A stretch of DNA of 64,000 bases from Sorangium cellulosum So0157-2. GTDB lineage: Bacteria > Myxococcota_A > Polyangia > Polyangiales > Polyangiaceae. This document shows, in pieces, positions 8,838 through 64,000 of this stretch. A program made the position numbers and the translations under genes. The notes below the pieces were generated by a model. The model was not told where the DNA came from, did not search any database, and saw only the letters and a program-made list of their open reading frames with translations. Every line of letters begins with the position of its first letter. Position 1 is the stretch's first letter. The stretch spans positions 9,624,001-9,688,000 of the forward strand of contig NC_021658.1 of NCBI RefSeq assembly GCF_000418325.1. The letters are read 5' to 3'.

Positions 8838-9131
8838 GTGACGCTCGACGAAGCCGTGAGACAACTGGACACGCTGGATGAAAACGCCATCCTCTGCGCT
8901 CGACCGCCGTGGACACCTCTCTCCGAATGCGTTATTGCATTACCTGATGAAGATCTGGGCGTACCAAGGCACGTTAAGGACGCCGGGCTCGCCTATTTCT
9001 TGGAAGTGCATGTGGCGCATGAAGTCCTTCGCGTCTTTGGCGACAAACCGGCCACACACGAAGAGAGGGTTCGCCTTCTGATTTACTACGCCGAAAACGA
9101 TGCATATCCAGGGTGGGTGTACCAAGGCTGA
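8838..9131 (+). CDS. Putative immunity protein for the RHS tip
   Basis: This is a 97-residue soluble acidic protein with no signal peptide. It starts at GTG 8838 behind a very strong ribosome-binding site. The position, ten bases after the WHH nuclease tip and on the same strand, is the standard place for a cognate immunity protein; the function is inferred from that context. The sequence (TLDEAVRQLDTLDENAILCA, VAHEVLRVFGDKPAT, LIYYAENDAYPGW) loosely recalls DUF7716-type small proteins, but that assignment is from memory. The stop overlaps the beginning of the duplicated RHS fragment that follows. Confidence 0.65.
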   Translation: MTLDEAVRQLDTLDENAILCARPPWTPLSECVIALPDEDLGVPRHVKDAGLAYFLEVHVAHEVLRVFGDKPATHEERVRLLIYYAENDAYPGWVYQG

Positions 9132-9132
9132 C

Positions 9133-10184
9133 AGTAAACCGCTTCGGGGAGCTCGTCAGATCGACAGACGCGCTTGCTCGGGTGATGACGCTCGCTTCCG
9201 ACGGCCTGGGGCGCACCACCTCGCGCGTGGACGAGGACGGCGCCGAGCGGCTGACGACCACCTGGACCTGGGACACCGCGCTGCACGGGGTCGGCAAGCT
9301 CCACGTGCTGGAGAGCCCCGACGGGGACAAGACGTGGATGTCGGTGCCACGACGGCGTCTGTCGACGTCGGCACGACCGGGACCTCGTCGGGCTATGTGC
9401 CACAGCCAGTGACCGTCTCGCCGGAGCACGCCGGCGCCGGCGGCCCGGGCACCGTCGTCGGCGAGACCTCGCTGGGCGCCGCGGAGGGCACGCGCGACCT
9501 CGGTTTCGGCGTCGCACGGTCGCTGGTGCTGAACGCGCTGATGTTCGGGATGTACGGCGGCTACGAGCTCGGCGGAGCGATCTGGCAAGGCTACGAGCAG
9601 GACGGAATTTTCGGCACGCTGAGCGCCGTGAACCCGCTCTACCATATCGGGCTGGGCGCAGCGGGCACGGCCCTCGCGATCGACGGAGGCGACTACCGGG
9701 AAGCGGGCGCGGGAGGACCAAGACTATGGTTCTCGCCGCGGCAACCATCCTCGGGATGGGGAGAGGGCTGGGGGCGCTCGCGGAGGAGTCGGCTGCTGCC
9801 GCGGCAGCTGCACGGGCAGCACCGAAAGCATACTCCGTCGCGTTCGAGGCTCAGCTATCTCATGCGGATTTTGAACTCAGTCGAGGCCGTCATTTTCAGA
9901 TTGCCATTGATGCGCTCGCCGCAGCGCAGCAGACAAATCCAGCGCTGGCAGAGCTGGTTCCGGCACCCACTGGATGGGGCAAGCCTCCTTCGGACTGGGT
10001 CTGGCAGCACGCGACGATCGAACAAGCTGGCGGGCGAGCCGGGGTGCTTCAGCTCGTGCCCAAAGCGCAGCATGCGCCAGGTTCACCATTCTGGCGACTT
10101 TTGCACCCCCTCCCCGGTGGTGGCGGGGGTTATACCGAGTGGCCCATCCCAGCAGGCGCTCCGCCAACCCAGGAGGATTCTACC
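9133..10184 (+). pseudogene. Displaced second RHS tip (orphan cassette), several frame breaks
   Basis: Bases 9133-9340 repeat the RHS core around 6397-6603. Bases 9341-9715 repeat the pre-tip linker (8021-8395), with about 1.4 kb missing between the two; the junction is out of frame. Near 9712 one base is absent relative to the main copy, so the rest is read in a third frame. The tip itself differs from the main one: DWVWQHATIEQAGG, GVLQLVPKAQH, LHPLPGGGGGYTEW, still reminiscent of a W-x-W-x-H nuclease fold. This matches the orphan-tip arrangement known for RHS loci, where spare C-termini lie downstream as recombination donors. There is no stop between this tip and the following immunity frame. 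Confidence 0.75.
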
Positions 10185-60489: not shown

Positions 60490-61536
60490 TCAGCGCCCCG
60501 GCGCCGCCCGGGCGAGCGCCGCGCCGACCGCGGCCGCGGCGCCGTCCCACGTGGGCAGCGCCGGCGCGCGGAGCATCGCCGCGCGGCGCATGCTCGCCCT
60601 GAGCGCCCCGTCCTCGATGAAGCGGGAGAGCGCCCGCGCGAGCCCCTCGCCGTCGTCCCAGAGCAGCGCCTCGGCGCCGTCCTGCACGACCTCGGCGATC
60701 GCGCCGGCGCGGGCGGCGAGCACCGGCACGCCGGCGCGGACCGCCTCGGTGAGCACCATGCCGTACCCCTCCAGCCGCGAGGGCAGGACCAGCGCGTCCG
60801 TCTCGGCGAGCGCGGCCGCGAGCGCCTCGTCGTCGAGCACGCCGCGCGCCTCGACGCGCGCCCGCAGGTGCGCGCTGCCGTCGATCGCCCGGCGCACGCG
60901 CTCGGCATAGGCCGGGTCGCGCGCCGCGTCGCCGACGAGGACGAGCGTGGCGCGCGCGCTCCCGACCCGCTCGAACGCCGCGAGCAGCTCCAGGAGCCCT
61001 TTGCGCGGGATGAAGCTCCCCACGAACGTGAGCCGCAGCGGGCCGCCGTCCCGCGCGGCGCGAGGGCGCAAGGGGAGCCGGTCCGCGCCCGGCGGCGCCA
61101 CGTCCACCCGGCCGAGCCCGTGCTCGCGCCGGAGCCGCGCCGCGGTCGTCGCGCTCGTCGCGAGGTGCGCGTCGCAGAGCCGGATCACCGCCGCCTCGGC
61201 GAGCGCGAGCGCCGCGCGCCGCGGGCCGGGCGGGAGCTCCCACGCGCTGAGGTGGTGCACGAGGAGCACGCGCGCGATCCGCCGCGGCAGCGCCGCGAAC
61301 GCCGGGCCGAGCTCCGGGAAGCAGAGCTCGTCGCCGACCACGACGGCGGGGTCGAGCCGGGCGAGGCGCCCCGCCAGCGCGAGCCCGGCCAGCGCGCGCG
61401 ACCGCGGCGCCGGGTCGAGGGACACCACCTCGACGACATCGCCCCTCCGCCGCAGCCGCTCGACGACGAGCCGATCGTAGATGTACCCGCCCGTGAGCTG
61501 GTCGAGGGCGCCGTAGACGATCCAGGCGATGCGCAT
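60490..61536 (-). CDS. Glycosyltransferase family 4
   Basis: The 348-residue GT-B enzyme starts at ATG 61536. The N-terminal domain (MRIAWIVYGALDQLTGGYIY) contains the acceptor side. The C-terminal domain has LTFVGSFIPRKGLLELL, LVLVGDAARDP, and the nucleotide-sugar motif LVLPSRLEGYGMVLTEAVRAG with its E-x7-E glutamates. It is cytoplasmic. It is the last of four close minus-strand genes with a RibD-C reductase, an MDR dehydrogenase and a PTPS-like protein. It presumably glycosylates their small-molecule product, which is inference. Confidence 0.88.
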   Translation of the reverse strand: MRIAWIVYGALDQLTGGYIYDRLVVERLRRRGDVVEVVSLDPAPRSRALAGLALAGRLARLDPAVVVGDELCFPELGPAFAALPRRIARVLLVHHLSAWELPPGPRRAALALAEAAVIRLCDAHLATSATTAARLRREHGLGRVDVAPPGADRLPLRPRAARDGGPLRLTFVGSFIPRKGLLELLAAFERVGSARATLVLVGDAARDPAYAERVRRAIDGSAHLRARVEARGVLDDEALAAALAETDALVLPSRLEGYGMVLTEAVRAGVPVLAARAGAIAEVVQDGAEALLWDDGEGLARALSRFIEDGALRASMRRAAMLRAPALPTWDGAAAAVGAALARAAPGR

Positions 61537-61575
61537 GGGTCCGGAGAGCGGCTCGGCCTCGCCCGGCGGCGGGCG

Positions 61576-61974
61576 CTACAGGTCGCGCTCGAAGCCCGCG
61601 TACGCCGTCGGCGATTCGCGGACGAGCACCCGCAGCGTCGCGCCCGGGCAAGGCGCCTCGTCCGCGGCGAGCTTCGCGATGTCCTCGGCGAGCAGCCCGG
61701 CCACGTGCTCGGCCACGCGCTCGGTCGTGGAGGTGCGCCCGGGGAAGGCCGGGTGCTCGTCGAGGTTCCGGTAGTCGATCGTGTCCAACGCCCGGCGCAG
61801 CGACGCGTGCAGCGCGCCGATGTCCATCACCACGTGGTGCGGGCCGAGCGCCTTCGCGCGGATCTCGACCTCGACGGCGTACGTCGCGCCGTGCAGCCGG
61901 GTCGCCGGGCCGAAGAACGGATCGGAGAAGCTGTGCGCGATCATCACGTGATCGCTGACGCCGAGGAGGAACAT
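61576..61974 (-). CDS. Divergent 6-pyruvoyltetrahydropterin synthase-like protein
   Basis: The 132-residue protein has a PTPS/QueD T-fold. Aligned with QueD, the first zinc His is kept (MIAHSFSD, His14), but the catalytic Cys before RLHG is Ala and the third zinc His is also Ala (RLHGATY instead of HGH). The late conserved Glu remains (VRESP). Such Cys-less forms with RLHGAT are remembered from actinobacterial clusters with MDR dehydrogenases. It probably acts on a pterin- or pyrimidine-like compound by another chemistry. It starts at ATG 61974, 14 bases after the dehydrogenase. Confidence 0.8.
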   Translation of the reverse strand: MFLLGVSDHVMIAHSFSDPFFGPATRLHGATYAVEVEIRAKALGPHHVVMDIGALHASLRRALDTIDYRNLDEHPAFPGRTSTTERVAEHVAGLLAEDIAKLAADEAPCPGATLRVLVRESPTAYAGFERDL

Positions 61975-61988
61975 GGGAGGCCCCTTCG

Positions 61989-63083
61989 TTAGGTTGCCCC
62001 TCGCGTAGCCGATCGCGATCCGTACTGGAAGACCGTCTGCAGCCTCGCCCCGGGCGCGGCGGCGAGCTCGGCGTAGACCGACGGCGCGGCGTCGAACGGG
62101 ACGGGCGGGTCGAGCAGCGCGTCGAGCGCGGCGTCCTCCAGCAGGGCGCGCACCAGCGCGAAGCGCCGCGCATAGTCCCAGCGGGGCGCGCGCTCGGGCG
62201 GGATGGTCGAGACCTGGCTCGCGCGCAGGCGCAGCCGGCGGCGGTGGAACTCCGCGCCGAGCGCGACCGGGCTCGTCCGCGCGCCGTAGAACGACGCGAC
62301 CGTCACCGTCGCCTCGCGGGCCGCGTGCGCGATCGCGCGGTCGAGCTCGCCCGGGTCGCCCGTCGCGGCGATCACGACGTCCGCGTCGCCGCGCGGCCGG
62401 TCGTCGTCGGGCCGGATCGCCGCAGCGGCGCCGAGCGCGAGGCCGGCGCCGCGGCGCCGCTCGCTCGGCTCGACCAGGCGGACCTCGGCCCCGGCGCGCC
62501 GCGCGAGCGCCACGACGAGCAGCCCGACGACGCCGCCGCCGAGCACCACCACGGCGTCCCCGAGGCCGACCCCCGCGTCCCACACGCACGTGATCGCCGT
62601 CTCGAGGTTCGCCGCCAGCACCGCGCGCTCGCCCGGGATCGAGCGGGGCAGCGCGCGCGCCGCGCCCGGCCCGAACAGGTGCAGATCGCCGTGCGGCGCG
62701 AGCGCGAAGACGCGGTCGCCCAGCCCGAGCGCCGCGCCCTCGCCGCGGGCGACGACCTCGCCTACCCACGCGTAGCCATAGCGGCGCGGGTAGGTCGGCG
62801 CGCCCGGCGCGTCGAGCGACGGATCGAACGGCGTCGGCCCCTCGCCGCGGAAGAGGAGGAGCTCCGTCCCCTGGCTCAGGCCCGAGGCGACCGCGCGCGC
62901 CACGACCTCGCCGGCCCGCGGCTCGCGCGGCGGGTCGCCGGCGCGCACCTCGACGGCGCCGGGCCGGACGAACCAGAGCTCCCTGGCGGGCCCCGCGAGC
63001 GGCGCGGGCGCTTCCGGCGGCGCGGCCGCCGCGGGCGGCGCGGAGGGCCCCGGCGGCGCCGGAGGATCAGTCGGGATAGGCAA
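61989..63083 (-). CDS. Zinc-type MDR (alcohol) dehydrogenase
   Basis: The product is about 364 residues; the start is uncertain and TTG 63083, overlapping the reductase stop, has GAGG five bases upstream. After a Pro/Ala-rich lead, the GroES-like domain (VASGLSQGTELLLFRGEGP, YGYAWVGEVVARGEG) precedes a Rossmann domain (AVVVLGGGVVGLLVVALARR). SQVSTIPPERAPRW follows. The Cys and His ligands of the catalytic zinc are not obvious, as in some quinone-reductase-like members. It should oxidise or reduce a polyol, aldehyde or enone with NAD(P). It lies in the reductase / PTPS / GT4 operon. Confidence 0.8.
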   Translation of the reverse strand: MPIPTDPPAPPGPSAPPAAAAPPEAPAPLAGPARELWFVRPGAVEVRAGDPPREPRAGEVVARAVASGLSQGTELLLFRGEGPTPFDPSLDAPGAPTYPRRYGYAWVGEVVARGEGAALGLGDRVFALAPHGDLHLFGPGAARALPRSIPGERAVLAANLETAITCVWDAGVGLGDAVVVLGGGVVGLLVVALARRAGAEVRLVEPSERRRGAGLALGAAAAIRPDDDRPRGDADVVIAATGDPGELDRAIAHAAREATVTVASFYGARTSPVALGAEFHRRRLRLRASQVSTIPPERAPRWDYARRFALVRALLEDAALDALLDPPVPFDAAPSVYAELAAAPGARLQTVFQYGSRSATRGAT

Positions 63084-63843
63084 CGTCGCCTCGCAAGAGC
63101 AGGTTGCCCCCCAGGAGCTCGACCGCCGGCTCGCGCAGGTCGATCGCCGACGCGAGCGGCGCCTCGCCGAGGGCGCCGACCGCGGGGATCGCCGTGTCGC
63201 CGAGCAGGCGCGGCGCGATCTCGACCTCGGCGCGATCGGCGAGCCGCGCGCGCAGGAAGGAGGTGAGCACGGCGGCGCCCCCCTCGACGAGCAGCCGCCG
63301 CACGCCGCGCGCATGGAGCTCGGCGAGCGCGTGCGGCAGCGAGACGCGGCCGCGGTCGTCCGCGGGCACGACGATCACCGCCGCGCCGCGCTCCTCGAGG
63401 CGCGCGCGCGCGCCGTCCTGCGCGCGGCCCGCCGCGCCGACGACGACCACGCGCCCGCCGGCCGGCTGTCCTCTCGAGGTGCCGTTGGCGGTGGTGGTGG
63501 ACGTGATCGACGTGATCGACGTGCTCGACGTGATCGACGTGCTCGACGTGCTCGACGTGATCGACGTCCATCGCAAGAGGCGCGCCCCCTCCGGCACGCC
63601 GAGGGCGCTCGCCAGCACGACGCGCATCGGCTGCGGGCCCTCGCACGCGCGCACCGTCAGCAGGGGATCGTCGATGACGACGGTGCGGATCCCGACGAGC
63701 ACCGCGTCGTGATCCGCGCGCGCCCGGTGGGCGTGCGCGATCCCCGCGGGCGTGCTGAGCTCGACGCGCTCGTTGGGGGCGGCGATGCGGCCGTCGAGCG
63801 TCTGGGCGAAGTGGAGCGTGACCAGCGGGCGCGGGAGGCTCAT
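63067..63843 (-). CDS. RibD C-terminal-type reductase
   Basis: The 258-residue protein has the dihydrofolate-reductase-like fold of RibD-C, which reduces the ribosyl group of a diaminopyrimidine with NADPH. Motifs: VTLHFAQTLDGRIAAPNERV, HRARADHDAVLVGIRTVV, and late LLVEGGAAVLTSFLRARLAD. The deaminase half of RibD is absent. Start ATG 63843; GTG 63864 is possible. Around residues 98-125 a run of (I/S)TS tripeptides from a 9-bp DNA repeat is inserted where RibD-C has a loop. It heads an operon with an MDR dehydrogenase, a PTPS-like protein and GT4. Confidence 0.82.
   Translation of the reverse strand: MSLPRPLVTLHFAQTLDGRIAAPNERVELSTPAGIAHAHRARADHDAVLVGIRTVVIDDPLLTVRACEGPQPMRVVLASALGVPEGARLLRWTSITSSTSSTSITSSTSITSITSTTTANGTSRGQPAGGRVVVVGAAGRAQDGARARLEERGAAVIVVPADDRGRVSLPHALAELHARGVRRLLVEGGAAVLTSFLRARLADRAEVEIAPRLLGDTAIPAVGALGEAPLASAIDLREPAVELLGGNLLLRGDVAYPD
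63500..63562 (-). repeat. 9-bp tandem repeat inside the reductase gene
   Basis: Seven units of GACGTGATC or GACGTGCTC stand in tandem on the plus strand (minus-strand coding for Ile/Ser-Thr-Ser tripeptides). Since 9 is a multiple of 3, expansion keeps the frame and only lengthens a loop. Confidence 0.8.
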
Positions 63844-64000
63844 GGCGCGCTCGCGGGCGGACACCCGGCGCGGCCGAACGCGCGCGCCGCGCGGGCGTTG
63901 GGGGACGACGTCCTCGTCCCGAGCCGGCCATCGAGCCTCCGGACCACGGCGCCACTGTAGAACAGAACGCCTGATCAGGCGAGGAGGCCACCCGCGGGGC
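63844..64000. other. Upstream region of the reductase operon
   Basis: No gene with family resemblance is seen in the last 157 bases. A minus-strand frame is open through it, but its composition is Arg/Pro-rich. The region near 63950-63975 is the least GC-rich part and may hold the operon promoter; the operon could also continue beyond the window edge. Confidence 0.35.

Follow-up and report, generated by a model that had tools for sequence, protein, structure and literature searches.

A four-gene PTPS-IV operon of Sorangium cellulosum and its possible role in making a glycosylated, GTP-derived pterin-like compound

The Sorangium operon and its closest described relatives

The passages of PMC5445326 that treat the PTPS-IV subfamily of COG0720 describe a cluster of 561 sequences in which the motif FGPAQ is 'preferentially' present, PF00925 and PF01872 occur in the gene neighbourhood and the function is unsettled (PF00925 is called GTP cyclohydrolase I there; its Pfam name is GTP_cyclohydro2). 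Other PTPS types carry CxxxHGH, CxxxxxHGH or ExxHGH motifs according to a passage of PMC5041015, which also ties PTPS-IV to archaeal F420 synthesis as unpublished work. BrbF, a formamidase homologous to creatininase, deformylates a GTP-cyclohydrolase intermediate, as summarized in PMC9478397. Here we describe a PTPS-IV gene within an operon of Sorangium cellulosum So0157-2, whose genome is a single contig of 14.78 Mb. The window analysed is a stretch of 64,000 nucleotides (genome positions 9624001-9688000), and four minus-strand genes for a RibD_C reductase, an MDR dehydrogenase, a PTPS-like protein and a GT4 glycosyltransferase fill its positions 60490-63843 (Table 1).

The four genes are real, and their arrangement is no chance event, since neighbourhoods of this kind are found again in Polyangia and two further phyla. 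We propose, with a probability of about one half, that the operon is the minimal myxobacterial form of a conserved set that makes a glycosylated GTP-derived pterin-like compound. Part of this neighbourhood (PTPS-IV with PF00925 and PF01872) is already in print, without a settled function. An earlier note on this DNA had described genes of these four families lying head to tail with one overlap and gaps of at most 39 bases, and the open reading frames (ORFs) and Pfam matches bear this out. The RibD_C and MDR genes overlap by 17 bases if the MDR gene begins at its likeliest start, the TTG at 63083; the following gaps measure 14 bases (MDR to PTPS) and 39 bases (PTPS to GT4). For RibD_C, a GTG start at 63864 is also possible. 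All four Pfam scores exceed their family cut-offs.

Table 1. Features of the operon, in window coordinates
Feature	Position	Strand	Remarks
RibD_C-type reductase, first gene of operon	63067..63843	-	ATG start; Pfam RibD_C 116 bits
BchC-like MDR dehydrogenase	61989..63083	-	TTG start; Pfam ADH_zinc_N 36 bits
PTPS-IV-like protein, SCO6650 homologue	61576..61974	-	Pfam PTPS 69 bits
GT4 glycosyltransferase	60490..61536	-	Pfam Glycos_transf_1 87 bits (cut-off 26.4)
9-bp tandem repeat, in frame inside RibD_C	63500..63567	-	codes Ser/Thr/Ile-rich insert

Judged by its sequence, the PTPS-like protein belongs to the PTPS-IV subfamily of COG0720 as a homologue of SCO6650 from Streptomyces coelicolor (PDB 3d7j), its best solved relative (phmmer E 7.8e-26, full length). 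The top structural match of its AlphaFold model (pLDDT 87.6) is also 3d7j (41% identity), followed by PTPS and QueD structures, and in a phylogenetic tree 53 PTPS-IV rows split from two QueD-type rows with support of 100/96, on long outgroup branches. Across 31 aligned PTPS-IV relatives His14, His28 and Glu120 are invariant, positions 17-27 hold no Cys, Ala takes the place of the third zinc His in 30 and the His of the LDH motif is Tyr or Phe in all 31. The catalytic Cys, the catalytic His and the third zinc His are all missing from the window protein. Glu120 aligns with the Glu that anchors the pterin in PTPS enzymes. The window protein and SCO6650 share the FGPA..RLHGAT segment, the lack of Cys, the Ala in place of the third His, a Tyr for the LDH His and the conserved Glu. 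As elsewhere in the subfamily, a RibD_C (PF01872) gene lies in the neighbourhood. Differences are that the five Sorangium copies aligned have FGPAT for FGPAQ and that no RibA stands beside the window operon; a neighbouring PF00925 gene is a trend within PTPS-IV and does not decide membership. The window segment reads FGPAT..HGAT, with FGPAT in this protein and four other Sorangium copies and FGPAQ in the remaining nine rows aligned; the last position of the motif is Gln in 30 rows of the 31-row alignment.

Two other identities were rejected for this protein: QueD (PTPS-I), since CxxxHGH is absent and TIGR03367 scores 40 bits against a cut-off of 89, and canonical PTPS (PTPS-II), since CxxxxxHGH is absent. 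The QueD-type protein encoded elsewhere in the genome has retained C..LHGH and LDH. Despite the missing motif, PTPS-IV proteins in 13 annotated plasmid records are named 6-carboxytetrahydropterin synthase (12 records) or 6-pyruvoyl tetrahydropterin synthase (one).

The reductase consists of a RibD_C domain only, without a deaminase domain (Pfam). All 17 cluster members scanned, a number of them represented only by matched stretches, likewise lack the deaminase domain, which the 18th protein, the genome's own RibD, has; none of ten cluster proteins taken as whole open frames (nine belong to the same 17) has it. The best solved relatives are 6p8c, a 2,5-diamino-6-ribosylamino-pyrimidinone 5'-phosphate reductase (73.2 bits), 2azn (73.1) and the RibD structure 7lrh (70.7). 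Riboflavin-reductase models give the highest scores, both below cut-off: TIGR01508, the archaeal diaminopyrimidine reductase, 109 bits (cut-off 186), and TIGR00326, bifunctional RibD, 91 bits (cut-off 156). Membership of bifunctional RibD was rejected on that score and on the single domain, and a leaning towards the archaeal reductases (109 versus 91 bits) was dropped because the three solved relatives score level. The window protein shares with these the RibD_C domain and the conserved DDPxLTxR and EGG motifs. It differs in lying outside any riboflavin cluster, in a strain-specific insert and in the Gln of an AQxLDG segment, which is found in all 17 cluster members where the genome's own RibD has Leu and 2azn and 6p8c have Met. 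The Ser/Thr/Ile-rich insert, encoded by a 9-bp repeat, is missing from all five other Sorangium orthologues aligned. In a 26-row tree the cluster RibD_C proteins and the reductase domain of the genome's own RibD are separated from its five further PF01872 proteins (94/99).

Among 28 relatives of the MDR dehydrogenase there are no conserved zinc ligands (the commonest Cys column holds 16), the SxGTE motif is kept, except that two have Ser instead of Thr, and Asp or Glu ends strand beta-2 in every one. This acidic residue is why the enzyme is predicted to prefer NAD(H). Its best NCBIfam match is TIGR01202 (BchC), at 58 bits against a cut-off of 291, so that membership of BchC was rejected. BchC shares both the SxGTE motif and the missing zinc ligands; unlike a BchC-type dehydrogenase, the window protein falls far below the cut-off and no chlorophyll genes were seen beside it. 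Structural matches to its model (pLDDT 91.4) include threonine, butanediol, sorbitol and galactitol-1-phosphate dehydrogenases. The GT4 protein matched 14 sequences of solved structures, which are uninformative as to donor and acceptor; the best is Tll1590, and among the 14 is a weak match to the tetrahydrobiopterin glucosyltransferase 9v0l (E 5.7e-8).

Conservation of the set and the place of RibA

We tallied genes within 10 kb of PTPS-IV (tblastn, E 1e-5), calling genes of unannotated loci with a custom script; several of the query proteins come from plasmid loci that are themselves tallied. All six Sorangium loci (six genomes) have RibD_C and MDR, five have GT4, and the contiguous four-gene form occurs in three. 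At 34 loci of other myxobacteria we found MDR in 31 (29 within 300 bp), RibD_C in 25 and GT4 in 24, along with CDP-alcohol phosphotransferase (10), LPG_synthase_TM (9), sulfatase-like (7), methyltransferase (4), FkbM (2) and RibA (1) genes. At two of the three loci lacking MDR the contig ends 53 and 213 bases away from PTPS-IV, and in the third genome a fragment of MDR is found on another contig. On plasmids of Actinomycetota, Alpha- and Gammaproteobacteria (18 loci) the counts are MDR 15, GT4 14, methyltransferase 14, RibD_C 12, CDP-alcohol phosphotransferase 10, RibA 9, LPG_synthase_TM 9, sulfatase-like 7, cytochrome b561 7, FkbM 5 and creatininase 2. These 18 were tallied from 22 plasmid PTPS-IV matches, of which H21 was dropped as QueD-like and H8, H15 and H22 were left out. 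One of three sulfatase-like proteins scanned passes the Pfam cut-off. A neighbourhood conserved outside the strain, on which the interpretation in the earlier note depended, is present in Polyangia and in two other phyla.

A scan of the genome collection with the MDR query gave 13 loci. MDR is present by construction at loci L034-L042, which came from the MDR query; a genome-wide co-occurrence test is free of this effect. In 377 Myxococcota genomes PTPS-IV (E 1e-26 or better) occurs in 24 and the MDR subfamily (E 1e-30 or better) in 23, with both in 22, scoring the best 11 (PTPS-IV) and 5 (MDR) first-look candidates per genome. The hypergeometric probability is 2.8e-32, ignoring kinship, and the positives are spread over several Myxococcota families. 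The two genomes that have PTPS-IV but no MDR are the ones noted above, in which the contig ends close to PTPS-IV. G242 is the sole genome with the MDR and no PTPS-IV; its MDR protein is divergent, lacks SxGTE and has unrelated neighbours. Five genomes with PTPS matches at E 2e-16 to 7e-16 (61-63 bits, where the rest have at least 97) were taken as QueD-like and left out without individual checks.

In one myxobacterial cluster a single protein (L055:10413-11987) combines the LPG_synthase_TM domain with the CDP-alcohol phosphotransferase domain, a fusion that suggests joint action of the two.

The earlier note placed a RibA-like gene beside such sets in actinobacteria and suggested looking for a paralogue just past base 64000. 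The actinobacterial link is indeed seen in Streptomyces fungicidicus (L062) and S. globisporus (L080), and also in alphaproteobacteria and one myxobacterium (L055), so that RibA shares the cluster at 10 loci of three phyla (nine of the 18 plasmid loci and the myxobacterial one). No RibA paralogue lies just past base 64000: the next ORF there is a divergent one that has clustered cysteines and matches no Pfam family. Elsewhere, the Sorangium genome has three PF00925 matches. Those at 8.24 and 9.23 Mb have Tyr at the position of E. coli Tyr105, and no companion of the set was seen beside them; that at 11.93 Mb is a RibBA-type gene flanked by ORFs resembling RibE and RibH (neighbours read by eye).

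At the Tyr105 position the ten cluster RibA proteins have Met in both Streptomyces members and Tyr in the other eight. A Met-type GTP cyclohydrolase of S. coelicolor reportedly stops at the formylated intermediate. A creatininase-family protein stands beside RibA only in the two Streptomyces clusters (confirmed by PF02633 at L062), with no match near the other eight using one creatininase query. Both RibA-bearing Streptomyces clusters therefore pair a creatininase-family protein with a Met-type RibA, as in the BrbF system with a Met-type cyclohydrolase; unlike that system, the pairing is absent at the Sorangium locus, and the sole PF02633 match of that genome is at 3.36 Mb. The pairing would fit a two-step opening of GTP feeding the same pathway, although few independent events are involved.

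Judged from the locus numbers SCO6650 and SCO6655 only, the S. fungicidicus cluster would fit SCO6648-SCO6655 by gene order. Data in PMC3610822 give SCO6652 log2 values of 0.8, 4.3 and 4.1 in successive multinucleated-mycelium stages, and SCO6655 appears in a gene list of PMC2853524 whose members are mostly raised in stationary phase. These values hint at a developmental use of the S. coelicolor cluster.

The history of the operon within Sorangium may involve a replacement. Four Polyangiaceae (L051, L123, L124 and L126) carry such an operon flanked by YqgE on one side and, at a distance of up to about 2 kb, by an XPB helicase/DUF790 pair on the other. A fifth member (L048) has the operon adjoining YqgE, with XPB about 8 kb off and no DUF790 in the stretch. 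Flanks were read in three Sorangium genomes (L056-L058), and there the space between YqgE and XPB/DUF790 contains just an open second copy of PTPS-IV. Such second copies occur in all six Sorangium genomes; the orphan copies at L056-L058 have FGPAQ, and that of So0157-2 lies in the stretch L056:7931-11084, at about 11.293 Mb of the genome. In the PTPS-IV tree the second Sorangium copy groups with the five Polyangiaceae operons (94/98) and the window copies with L041 (90/89). The simplest reading of this pattern is that an old operon was replaced by a second one and left a single PTPS-IV gene behind.

Proposed pathway and competing explanations

GTP cyclohydrolase II opens GTP to 2,5-diamino-6-ribosylamino-4(3H)-pyrimidinone 5'-phosphate, and in Sorangium this first step would be supplied in trans. 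The deaminase-free RibD_C enzyme, judging from its family and domain content, would then reduce the ribose to a ribityl chain with NADPH while the 2-amino group is kept. Given its relation to BchC and polyol dehydrogenases and its acidic cofactor residue, the MDR enzyme could oxidize a secondary ribityl hydroxyl, most simply at C2', with NAD+. The new ketone and the 5-amino group could close the ring, with PTPS-IV binding or shaping the product, which on chemical grounds would be a 7,8-dihydropterin with a three-carbon phosphate side chain, similar to dihydroneopterin-3'-phosphate. Finally, GT4, as its family suggests, would attach a sugar. Such a route would arrive at a pterin by reducing and then re-oxidizing the intermediate, instead of through the rearrangement that GTP cyclohydrolase I carries out. 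That the four enzymes act in sequence in a conserved GTP-derived pathway seems to us an evenly balanced proposition, while the exact chemistry of the MDR oxidation and ring closure is tentative and rather doubtful. In the larger versions of the set, which occur in Rhizobiales, Streptomyces and deep Myxococcota lineages, methylation, CDP-alcohol phosphotransferase, LPG_synthase_TM and, in some, cytochrome b561 would extend the product to a pterin lipid; a route independent of GTP cyclohydrolase I that ends, in the larger clusters, in a membrane-linked and perhaps redox-active lipid is an unlikely but conceivable elaboration.

Several observations weigh against a common GTP-derived pathway. RibA stands beside the operon in none of the six Sorangium genomes and at only one of the 34 other myxobacterial loci. 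The operon is split in three of the six Sorangium genomes: GT4 lies at a distance of about 9 kb in two of these and of about 16 kb in the third (So ce26). At 10 of the 34 other myxobacterial loci and at 4 of the 18 plasmid loci, some of which are truncated by contig ends, GT4 was not found nearby. Three of the 18 plasmid loci, all from Streptomyces (L065, L067 and L088 at 9001-9399), hold PTPS-IV alone and are the three that lack MDR, with cupin, metallo-hydrolase and sigma-factor genes nearby; these and the orphan Sorangium copy indicate that PTPS-IV can persist without the set. SCO6650 itself is said to contain no zinc and to lack PTPS activity. One PTPS-IV protein (L054:1792-2187, genome G045) keeps HGH with the third zinc His but without Cys, and is possibly an intermediate form. 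The genome's own RibD falls within the cluster group beside the window RibD_C (94/94, on long branches), and the cluster reductases may therefore have more than one history. The structural matches of the MDR model, among the 50 listed, are at 13-22% identity and many are zinc enzymes, which does not fix the substrate. Sorangium also has a GTP cyclohydrolase I (one PF01227 match, 14.70 Mb) and therefore needs no second pterin route for folate. No described product or activity of the set was found in an outline survey of largely open-access literature.

The lack of an adjoining RibA in Sorangium, the loss of known catalytic residues in PTPS-IV and the breadth of PF01872, which includes other reductases such as the five further proteins of this genome, would suit an unlikely alternative: RibD_C, MDR and PTPS-IV recruited to a polyol or heteroaromatic substrate not derived from GTP, then glycosylated by GT4. 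RibA at 10 loci of three phyla argues for GTP instead, as do the grouping of RibD_C with RibD-type reductases apart from the five others (on long branches), its best scores with riboflavin-reductase models and the invariant Glu, presumably pterin-anchoring. Gene decay could also account for the split operons, the repeat insert in RibD_C of So0157-2 and the failure to find RibA, methyltransferase or CDP-alcohol transferase genes beside the operon in any of the six Sorangium genomes. However, a worn-down cluster without coherent present function in Sorangium is very unlikely, as the ORFs are open and conserved across the genus (PTPS-IV 87-93% in five other genomes, MDR 89-96% in three aligned orthologues, GT4 81-88% in three other genomes searched).

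RibA and RibD_C are families of the riboflavin pathway, and together with the unpublished F420 link of PTPS-IV (PMC5041015) they would be compatible with the set serving as an offshoot of flavin or F420 synthesis and providing a ribitylaminopyrimidine precursor. This is quite unlikely: the cluster RibD_C proteins lack the deaminase domain, no neighbour is annotated as RibE, RibH or RibB in the 13 annotated plasmid records, and RibD, RibBA-type, RibE-like and RibH-like genes lie elsewhere in Sorangium (the last two identified by eye). Moreover, we know of no role for a glycosyltransferase or an MDR dehydrogenase in flavin synthesis. On the strength of its fold and Pfam match, PTPS-IV might stand in for folate or tetrahydrobiopterin enzymes with PTPS-II or PTPS-III activity, but the CxxxHGH, CxxxxxHGH and ExxHGH motifs are absent, the lone PF01227 match is far off and GT4 and RibD_C would be left unexplained, so this is most improbable. 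Nor does the operon match queuosine or riboflavin synthesis, in keeping with the earlier note: the genome's own QueD (13.09 Mb), RibD (6.47 Mb) and RibBA-type gene (11.93 Mb) are all elsewhere. The note's interpretation stands as regards conserved families linked to GTP-derived pyrimidines and pterins in company with a glycosyltransferase; the part that fell is RibA beside the Sorangium operon.

The four-gene form is among the smallest seen that join PTPS-IV, RibD_C, MDR and GT4, and is therefore a tractable unit for expression. If the scheme of reduction, oxidation and ring closure is true, it would amount to a second route leading from GTP to pterins and point to an undescribed compound common to myxobacteria, rhizobia and streptomycetes.

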